DNA from: Cyanobium sp. T1B-Tous
GTDB taxonomy: Bacteria > Cyanobacteriota > Cyanobacteriia > PCC-6307 > Cyanobiaceae
Length of the DNA: 64,000 nt
Assembly: GCF_024345475.1 (NCBI RefSeq)
Contig: NZ_JAGQBE010000004.1
Location: forward strand, 1-64,000
Direction: 5' to 3'
Position 1 is the stretch's first letter, and each line of letters starts with the position of its first letter. Below the pieces are notes generated by a model. That model was not told the DNA's origin and ran no database searches. It saw only the letters and a program-made list of their open reading frames with translations. Positions 52,250 to 54,918 of this stretch are shown one piece after another. Made by a program: the position numbers and the translations under genes.

Positions 52250-53017
52250 TTGTCGAAGCCTTTCTCTGCGTTGACCCCAGGCTGGCTCGCCGATCTGGCC
52301 GGGGCTTGGGTGTTCTACTCCGTGTTGCCCGCCTGGCCTGGGCTGACGCCGCGCTTTGAGCGAATCGCCCGCTTCGGTCCCCTGATCGGTCTGGTGCTGG
52401 GGGGCATCCAGGCGCTCTTCTGGGGGCTGACGGCCAGCTGGCTGCCGCTCGGCGCCCAGGTGGCCCTGGTGCTCGCCCTGGGCCTGGTGCTCACGGGTGG
52501 CCTGCATGTGGATGGGGCCATGGACACGGCCGATGGCCTCGGTGCCGGTCCCCGGGCCTTGGAGGCGATGGCGGACAGCCGCGTCGGGGCTTCCGGGGTG
52601 CAGGCCCTGGCGCTGCTGCTGTTGCTGCGGGTGGCGGCGCTGGTCTGCCTGGCTACGGCGGCTCCGCTGGCCCTGCTTTGGGCTGCGTTCTGGGGCCGGG
52701 TGGCCCCCCTGCTGGCGATGGCCTGGTTCCCCTATCTCCGGGATCAGGGCAGTGCCGCCTTCCACCGGCAGCACTGGCGGGGGTTGCTGCCGGAGTTGGC
52801 ACCGGCGCTGCTGGCCCTGCTGCTGGCCCTGCTGGGCTGGGCCTGGGCCGGCTGGCCGCTGCCGGATGGAATCGGCATCGTGCCGGCGCTGCTGGTGCCC
52901 CTGTGGTTCGGGCGCCGGCTGGGTGGCCACAGCGGGGACACCTATGGCGCTTGCGTGGAGTGGGTGGAGACCCTGGCTCTGTTGCTCAGTGGCCTGGGGT
53001 TGCGGCTGGCAGGCTGA
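52250..53017 (+). CDS. cobS: adenosylcobinamide-GDP ribazoletransferase (cobalamin synthase)
   Basis: CobS joins the nucleotide loop to the corrin ring in the last step of cobalamin or pseudocobalamin synthesis. The 255-residue polytopic membrane protein has the hallmark [20 protein letters not shown] near residue 80 and [40 protein letters not shown] follows near the C-terminus. There is no ATG near the expected N-terminus; TTG 52250 fits the usual length, and TTG 52271 is an alternative. It ends in a 32-bp overlap with the convergent sensor kinase gene. Confidence 0.92.
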
Positions 53018-54110
53018 GGCAGAACGCATTGCCGTGCCCAGGCAGCTCCGGGGCGATGGCGGCTGGCGGGAGCACCAGGGTCAGGTCGCCGTCCAGGTTG
53101 CGGGCCAGGTCCCTGGCCAGGGCCAGGCCCAGGCCCGTGCCCGTTCGGGTCTGGCCCGCGCGGCCCCGGAAGCCCCGTTCGAAAATCGCCTCACGCTCTT
53201 CGGCGGCAATCGGCTCGCCGCCGTCCCAGACCGTCAGTTGCCAGGGGCCTGCCGTGGTGGCCTGGCAGTGGAGTCCGATGGCGCTGCCGGCGGGGCTGTA
53301 GCGGAAGGCATTTTCCAGCAGGTTGGCCAGGATCTCGGCCACGGCGCCACTGTCGCCCCGCCAGCTCGGCATGCAGGCCGGAGGGTGCCAGGGGCGGCCC
53401 TGGAGGGCTGCCGTGGCAGCGGCCCGTTGCAGCAGGGGCTCCAGCCAGTCCTGCAGAGGCTCTCCCTCGGGTCCGATCAGCACGGGGGGCAGCAGCAGGG
53501 GCTGGCTGGCATCGCCCGTGACCGCCGGCGTCTCGCGCTGGCCCAGCTGGGAGAGCGCATCCACGTAGCGGTTGAGCTGGCGCTCCTCCGCCAGGAGCCC
53601 CTCCACCAGGGGCCGATTCTGGTTGTCCTGCTCGAGGCGCCGCAACAGCAACTGGCCAAAGGTGCGCAGGGCGGCCAGGGGGTTGCGCAGCTGATGCAGC
53701 AGCAGGTCCAGTTCCGCGTGTTGCTCCTGCAGGGTGCGTTGCAGCCGCTGTTGTTCCAGATCCAGGCAGAGGGCCTCGGTGAGGCACAGGGCGACAGCCT
53801 GCAACCGCTGACCGAGGGTGTCAGGCCAGGGCACCACCGTGGTTTCCACCTGAATGGCCCCCAGCAAGACGTTCTGGTGCCGCAGCGGCAGCCAGCGCCG
53901 CTCCTCGGATGGCACCCTCAGGGGGCTGCTGGCCTCCACGGGCGGGAGGGCCCGACCATCGCTGGGCCACTGGCCGATGGGCACCAGGCTGGGGGCGCTG
54001 CCATTGCCTGGCTGGGTCACGTACACGACCAGGGACCGCAGATCAGCCCGGTCGGCGAACTGGGCCAACTGGAAACGGAGCAGGGCTGAAAAGCGGTTGG
54101 AGACTTGCAT
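52986..54110 (-). CDS. sensor histidine kinase with GAF-like input domain
   Basis: The 374-residue protein has an N-terminal input region (about residues 1-120, GAF-like, with [15 protein letters not shown] and [18 protein letters not shown]) and a transmitter module. The H box is [21 protein letters not shown], where His139 should be phosphorylated. The ATPase part has N box [15 protein letters not shown]1 VWDGGEPI, F box IFERGFRG and G2 [14 protein letters not shown]. No transmembrane helix is seen, so it is probably cytosolic. No response regulator gene is adjacent, so the signal and partner are unknown. Confidence 0.9.
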
Positions 54111-54281
54111 CTGGGGCGTTCAACCGCCGTCCTGCCGCAGAAATTTTCGAACGGGTGTGTGAAAACCGGGAAAAAGTCTTAAGATCCTTGGTATCGACCA
54201 ATACGACGCGGTCCGCAAGCGGGCAGCGGCTCATCGTCGTGACACCCTCACCCTCGGTTGCCCTTTCAGGTTTTCGAGGCT

Positions 54282-54425
54282 ACAGCAGAGACAGATCCGA
54301 CTTCTCGCCGATCCCTCCTCTCTGCTGTTCCGCAACCCGAATGGGCGGGTTGTGGCGTCACTGACCTCCAGGCCTGCTGACCCCTCCGGACAACAGAACG
54401 TTTGGGCGTCGCCCGTGCTGTCCGG
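54282..54425 (+). ncRNA. candidate structured leader or small RNA upstream of DUF3155
   Basis: Three successive stem-loops are visible. ACAGCAGAGA (54282-54291) pairs perfectly with TCTCTGCTGT (54319-54328) across a 27-nt loop. CCGCAACCCG (54330-54339) pairs with CGGGTTGTGG (54346-54355) in 10 bp with one G-U. CCGGACA (54386-54392) pairs with TGTCCGG (54419-54425) and encloses GGGC-GTC-GCCC. The density of long perfect stems in non-coding sequence argues for a functional RNA, either a 5' leader of DUF3155 or an independent transcript. No family is recognised. Confidence 0.4.
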
Positions 54426-54524
54426 CCTTTCGGATGGCTGGGCGGGCTGAGTCACGGGCCCTGCGCATGTCTTGCGCTCCCAAGGTCCGTTCCCCCCCTC
54501 CGGTTTCTTCTCGTCCCCTCAATC

Positions 54525-54539
54525 CTCCCCCACCGGGAG
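54525..54539 (+). promoter_or_regulatory. Shine-Dalgarno of DUF3155 sequestered in a hairpin
   Basis: The ribosome-binding site GGGAG (54535-54539) lies 7 nt before ATG 54547. CTCCC (54525-54529) pairs with it perfectly around a 5-nt loop, and further C-rich tracts upstream (54491-54499) could pair with it as well. This suggests structure-controlled translation initiation. Confidence 0.45.
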
Positions 54540-54546
54540 CAGCTCA

Positions 54547-54918
54547 ATGTCTAAGAAGCGCAAGCGGATCAGCCGTCGCCGGCTCGCAGGCCAGCGGGTG
54601 CTGGCGCATGTCCCCACCTTCAATCTGGAGACCGGCTCCCATAAACCGGTCACCGCCGCCCGTCGCTACATCGCCGAGGAGCTGCTGGTGCCCCCGGCGA
54701 TCCTCAACGTCCGCCGCAACGAGCACACCACCGACCGCTTCTTCTGGGGCGAGAAGGGCCTGTTCAGCGCCCAGTACGCCGAGGAGAACCACTTCCTGTT
54801 CCCGTCCCTGCGTTCGATCGTCGATCGCATCGGTGAGGAGGTCCTGTTCGAAGGCATTGAGGCCCTTGCCGCCGACGACTGGGAGGAGATGGAGGAGTAC
54901 GAGTACGCCTTTGTCTGA
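54547..54918 (+). CDS. DUF3155 domain-containing protein
   Basis: This cyanobacterial protein of 123 residues has unknown function. It begins with a very basic segment (MSKKRKRISRRRLAGQRVL) and continues with HVPTFNLETGSHKPVTAARRYI, a conserved DUF3155 core. The end is strongly acidic (DDWEEMEEYEYAFV). The charge polarity suggests nucleic-acid or protein binding. The gene stands alone with a structured leader in front and two tandem hairpins behind it, so it is probably a single-gene transcript under RNA-level control. Confidence 0.85.
   Translation: MSKKRKRISRRRLAGQRVLAHVPTFNLETGSHKPVTAARRYIAEELLVPPAILNVRRNEHTTDRFFWGEKGLFSAQYAEENHFLFPSLRSIVDRIGEEVLFEGIEALAADDWEEMEEYEYAFV

Follow-up and report, generated by a model that had tools for sequence, protein, structure and literature searches.

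The locus raises the question of whether the sequence ahead of a small, widely conserved cyanobacterial gene acts as a regulatory RNA and, if so, of what kind. The window (the whole 64,000-nt stretch of Cyanobium sp. T1B-Tous DNA that was analysed) carries on its forward strand a gene for a 123-amino-acid protein (54547-54918, start codon at 54547) with a basic N-terminus, MSKKRKRISRRR. The product is assigned to PF11352 (DUF3155) by a full hmmscan match (E = 5.9e-49; 164.8 bits against a curated cut-off of 22.1) and is identical to a protein of Cyanobium sp. FACHB-13342. On the reverse strand, and divergent from DUF3155, lies the gene of a sensor histidine kinase (52986-54110; HisKA and HATPase_c domains), an orthologue of Hik2/chloroplast sensor kinase (CSK). 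A preliminary description of the letters alone had placed three stem-loops and a hairpin over the ribosome-binding site ahead of DUF3155, and had proposed a riboswitch, a thermosensor or a protein-binding leader. The region is very probably a real, conserved and so far unnamed cis-acting gene-control element. It is ordinary in kind, a regulatory mRNA leader, and new as a member.

The predicted transcript begins well ahead of these structures. A conserved promoter block, GAAAAAGTCTTAAGAT, is located at 54170-54185 on the forward strand and ends in TAAGAT (54180-54185), which looks like a -10 element. The consensus of the block is gaAAAAAGTcTTAAGaT (n = 115 leaders); as GAAAAAGTNTTAAGAT it precedes the stems in nearly every Cyanobiaceae leader, with a spacing of roughly 95-115 nt in nearly all leaders between the block and the near-invariant sequence GGCUACAGCAG. 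With TAAGAT as the -10 element, transcription is predicted from conservation to start near 54192, so that the region before the Cyanobium gene would be an mRNA leader of ~355 nt. A start downstream of the stems, which the preliminary description held would argue against a structured leader, is not what the sequence indicates: the start predicted from the conserved promoter position precedes every stem. In a few Cyanobiaceae (L031, L066 and L068) DUF3155 is kept, and neither the promoter block nor the junction described below is recognisable upstream. No intrinsic terminator was found in 54050-54600. Transcription attenuation was rejected on this ground, and control of translation or stability is indicated instead.

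The 5' portion of the leader consists of a multi-helix junction on the forward strand, closed by a long-range helix, P1 (54236-54365), in which 54236-54246 pairs with 54354-54365. P1 is present in the predicted full-length fold of the window leader. Among the leaders aligned by covariance model R1, 14 of its 15 pairs show two-sided changes; in the window clade 90% of cells are paired and the changes are one-sided, G-U only. Within it, hairpin P2 (54252-54279) has two-sided changes in four of eight pairs in the R1 family, and is weaker in the window clade; its register is shifted there and it was excluded from the count. GGCUACAGCAG (54278-54288) forms the 5' side of P3 and occurs in almost all Cyanobiaceae leaders. 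P3 itself (54282-54328) pairs as ACAGCAGAG/CUCUGCUGU and corresponds to the first stem of the preliminary description. It is paired in 94% of cells in 15 Cyanobium leaders and in 75% of cells in 34 other leaders, with two-sided changes in three of six pairs, and tolerates breaks in its 3' side. The second stem, P4 (54330-54355; CAACCCG-AAUGGG-CGGGUUG), has a conserved loop, CGAAUGGGCG, and two-sided changes in six of nine pairs across 15 leaders of the genus; it is limited to the Cyanobium side of the family. Both of these stems are thus real, and the preliminary description had missed the promoter, P1 and GGCUACAGCAG.

The remainder of the original picture fared less well. Since the fold of a 370-nt RNA cannot be predicted reliably from its sequence alone, two results are weaker than those from covariation: the third proposed stem (54386-54425) has almost zero pairing probability in the full-length window leader and near zero in 12 of 15 relatives, and the C-rich tracts, suggested as alternative partners of the Shine-Dalgarno (SD) sequence, pair with it in the window under 2% of the time, and this alternative pairing was rejected there. 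In the full-length leader the arms of the third stem are instead taken up by an outward extension of the junction and by a hairpin near 54410-54447. In the siblings L005, L006 and L009 the SD is predicted to pair over a long range with CUCUCC near the third stem. A conserved element, ACAGAACGUUUGGGCGUCG (54391-54411, forward strand), is part of the third stem and is ACGUUUGGGCGU-like in many Cyanobiaceae leaders. UGGG is common to several leader loops (CGAAUGGGCG and CGUUUGGGCG, within 54330-54355 and 54391-54411 of the window, and GAUGGGU in the marine P3), and one factor might bind at each of these repeats.

Taken alone, the window leader is unconvincing as a structured RNA, given that its folding energy stands out only a little (z = -1.85, with 7 of 200 shuffles equally good; mean z = -1.7 over 34 relatives) and that hairpins as strong as the one over its SD have a background of ~7%. 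It is conservation and covariation that convince. Seventeen diverged leaders were aligned without fitting to any model (alignment A1), and P1 enclosing P2 and P3 gave 12 pairs with two-sided changes against 6.2 in shuffles. Sliding the partners lowered pairing from 80% to about 28-41%; since the structure was hand-built from the same sequences, this share of paired cells leans towards it, and two-sided changes are the fairer measure. Model R1 aligns 34 leaders, and its alignment, being fitted to the model, leans towards it in the following values: two-sided changes in 21 of 29 pairs against 11.2 (sd 1.9) in shuffles, and in 49 cells against 18.2, values reached by none of 500 shuffles, with 79.6% of the unshifted structure paired against 32-41% of slid structures. 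In the window clade the overall count of covarying pairs does not exceed that of shuffles (95 of 500 reach it), and the signal there comes from P4, from the covariation score (8 of 500 shuffles) and from the slid controls. When 40 marine leaders were aligned with MAFFT alone, RNAalifold found no structure, since the leaders vary too much in length for such an alignment; the hand-built junction and the covariance model were used for this reason.

The 3' portion of the leader consists of a short hairpin (54525-54539, forward strand) in which CUCCC (54525-54529) pairs with the SD, GGGAG (54535-54539). The preliminary description had this right: the hairpin is paired in ~98% of the computed ensemble in the window, it is conserved, and its arms co-vary. 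Its 3' arm ends 7-13 nt upstream of the start codon in 113 of 132 distinct leaders; 33 of these 113 keep the hairpin though the 3' arm is no recognisable SD. Its position is fixed and its strength is above that of shuffled sequence. An equally strong hairpin occurs at the same place in ~7% of Cyanobium genes, compared with 46% of DUF3155 leaders, and at equal score the enrichment over other genes is 4- to 6-fold (control genes were called with a simple gene caller in the window and in 400 kb from a relative). RNAalifold found nothing in an alignment of the hairpin, because its loop varies from 3 to 8 nt. An alignment-free test was therefore used, in which 5' and 3' parts are exchanged between leaders while composition and SD conservation are kept. 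The arms co-vary (z = 5.4, 0 of 2000 permutations) and swapping lowers the score in 2000 of 2000 cases. This outcome indicates that the hairpin itself is under selection, which one example alone could not have shown. Compensatory substitutions, whose absence from homologues the preliminary description would have counted against the leader, are thus present in the junction, P4 and the SD hairpin, as in a structured mRNA leader.

The leader RNA is conserved across the family Cyanobiaceae (Prochlorococcus, Synechococcus and Cyanobium) and is confined to one gene. Model R1 has one match in each of 33 genomes and model R2, built from the window clade, one in each of 24; all 33 and all 24 lie directly upstream of DUF3155, so that together 57 genomes carry a single copy each, always directly before this gene. 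The window's own covariance-model match spans 54230-54366 (E = 4e-32). One gene-specific copy per genome is what an autogenous protein-binding leader would be expected to show.

The reading that we favour, and hold to be about evenly balanced between right and wrong, is that of a gene-specific cis-regulatory RNA that acts on translation, combines a junction as recognition module with the SD hairpin, and is bound by a protein. Translational control is the natural reading of a leader with no terminator, a covarying hairpin at the start region and a gene-specific junction. The junction (P1 closing P2, P3 and, in Cyanobium, P4), with its GGCUACAGCAG, would serve as the recognition module, and the 3' hairpin over the ribosome-binding site would lower initiation. 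A trans-acting factor that binds the junction could then shift initiation or mRNA stability. Since the element serves one gene only, a protein is a better candidate than a ligand, and protein binding fits best among the leader types first proposed. The protein may plausibly be DUF3155 itself, bound through its N-terminus; an invariant basic, arginine-rich stretch there makes it a candidate binder and autogenous control plausible. The autogenous leaders of ribosomal-protein mRNAs (rplJ, L11, S10 operon) are alike in being structured, in preceding a gene for a small basic protein, in occurring usually in one or a few copies per genome and in controlling translation at the start site. However, DUF3155 is not known to be a ribosomal protein, and Rfam holds no leader family that matches. 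Leaders of the ribosomal-protein type have been predicted in the same organisms (Axmann et al. 2005, PMC1242208).

Somewhat unlikely, in our judgement, is a leader that binds a small RNA, or the ribosomal or degradation machinery (RNase E, S1), and so tunes stability or constitutive expression without any specific signal. RNase E and small RNA control are widely used in cyanobacteria. In favour are a conserved pyrimidine tract ahead of the SD hairpin and the retention of the hairpin where the SD is lost, which fits structural tuning. However, this would leave unexplained why a near-invariant GGCUACAGCAG sits inside a covarying junction before this gene only.

A riboswitch, in which the junction would bind a metabolite or ion and the SD hairpin would be the expression platform, seems unlikely. 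The architecture is suggestive: a compact junction of several helices, with covarying stems and some nucleotides nearly invariant, lies upstream of an SD hairpin, much as translational riboswitches (preQ1, SAM classes) place a recognition domain before a hairpin that sequesters the SD. However, a widespread riboswitch usually has several transport or biosynthesis genes under its control, whereas this element occurs exactly once per genome, always before a gene not known as metabolic, and has no known ligand. P3 tolerates breaks in its 3' side, and no mutually exclusive fold that would free the SD was seen in the window. At E values up to 5, neither the window leader nor the leaders of 12 diverse loci matched any Rfam family, riboswitches included, and kinship with known RNA families was rejected for this reason.

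The conservation could also reflect DNA, that is, operator sites and a promoter region shared by the divergent Hik2 and DUF3155 genes. The synteny of this divergent pair is conserved and the promoter block is unusually long. However, double-stranded DNA needs no compensatory changes, and those in P1, P2, P4 and the SD hairpin all lie downstream of the promoter, which makes this reading improbable. An RNA thermometer, in which heat would melt the short hairpin that covers the SD as in FourU and ROSE-type elements, is scarcely credible and was rejected on modelled melting: the hairpin is G-C-rich and stable, the thermodynamic model keeps pairing of its SD arm at 0.92 or more between 10 and 60 °C, both for the window and for most of the relatives tested, with no melting in the physiological range, and the large conserved junction upstream would be superfluous.

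The leader region may have been detected before. Cluster 217 of Axmann et al. (2005; PMC1242208, Table 1) is a predicted RNA element of Prochlorococcus MED4 between a two-component sensor histidine kinase gene and a gene for a conserved hypothetical protein. It was represented by one sequence only, with strand-specific Z-scores of -1.63 and -4.28; its structure and gene were not named, and Northern blots in MED4 were negative. The same gene arrangement is found at DUF3155 in Prochlorococcus-type genomes, and cluster 217 is probably the homologous DUF3155 leader region. The negative blots are compatible with this, as a leader need not yield a short RNA band.

DUF3155 is near-universal in cyanobacteria. 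Of 119 relatives, 113 encode the protein, as do 282 of 291 genomes drawn from the cyanobacterial class; it is conserved and mostly present as a single copy per genome. In the searched literature a single paper mentions it, as an unannotated ORF with peptide and RNA-Seq support, there is no NCBIfam model for it, and no homologue was found in phage records. A structure model is confident for residues 11-90 (block mean pLDDT >90). Sequence search gave no solved relative, and a fold search gave neither a clear structural relative nor a match pointing to RNA binding, a missing match not being the same as a new fold.

The kinase adjoins DUF3155 at 77 of the 80 named loci, as it does in most of the other cyanobacteria examined, and its H-box, LLHQLRN, is the same as that of Synechocystis Hik2 (the latter taken from Hik2 mutagenesis primers, PMC4751278). 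Hik2/CSK and DUF3155 are arranged divergently in genomes from Cyanobium to Prochlorococcus, and many other cyanobacteria share this arrangement. The presence of the leader in Prochlorococcus, Synechococcus and Cyanobium, before DUF3155 only, suggests that the dose of DUF3155 is tightly controlled, and the leader offers a direct handle on this protein through whatever binds it. Protein regulators are few in picocyanobacteria, hence a conserved cis-acting RNA that has no name yet and lies next to the photosynthetic redox sensor Hik2 deserves attention.

Outside Cyanobiaceae the DUF3155 gene occurs without this leader. Outside the picocyanobacteria (L069-L088 and L199-L228) the gene begins with UUG at 49 of 50 loci and with GUG at the remaining one, at a constant position. 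The UUG is preceded by a mostly strong AGGAGG, which suggests that the initiation rate of DUF3155 is constrained in another way outside Cyanobiaceae. It is a tentative and rather doubtful proposal that DUF3155 is a new cyanobacterium-specific RNA-binding protein without a clear structural relative, which would control itself through the leader in picocyanobacteria and through the UUG start in other cyanobacteria and be functionally tied to the Hik2/CSK redox kinase. In the loci L206-L228 a 6-6-6 inverted repeat, UUGUAR-N6-YUACAA, occurs ~47 nt before the UUG and near the predicted transcription start. It appears in compensatory GUAG/CUAC and GUAA/UUAC versions, and could be either an RNA hairpin or a DNA operator.
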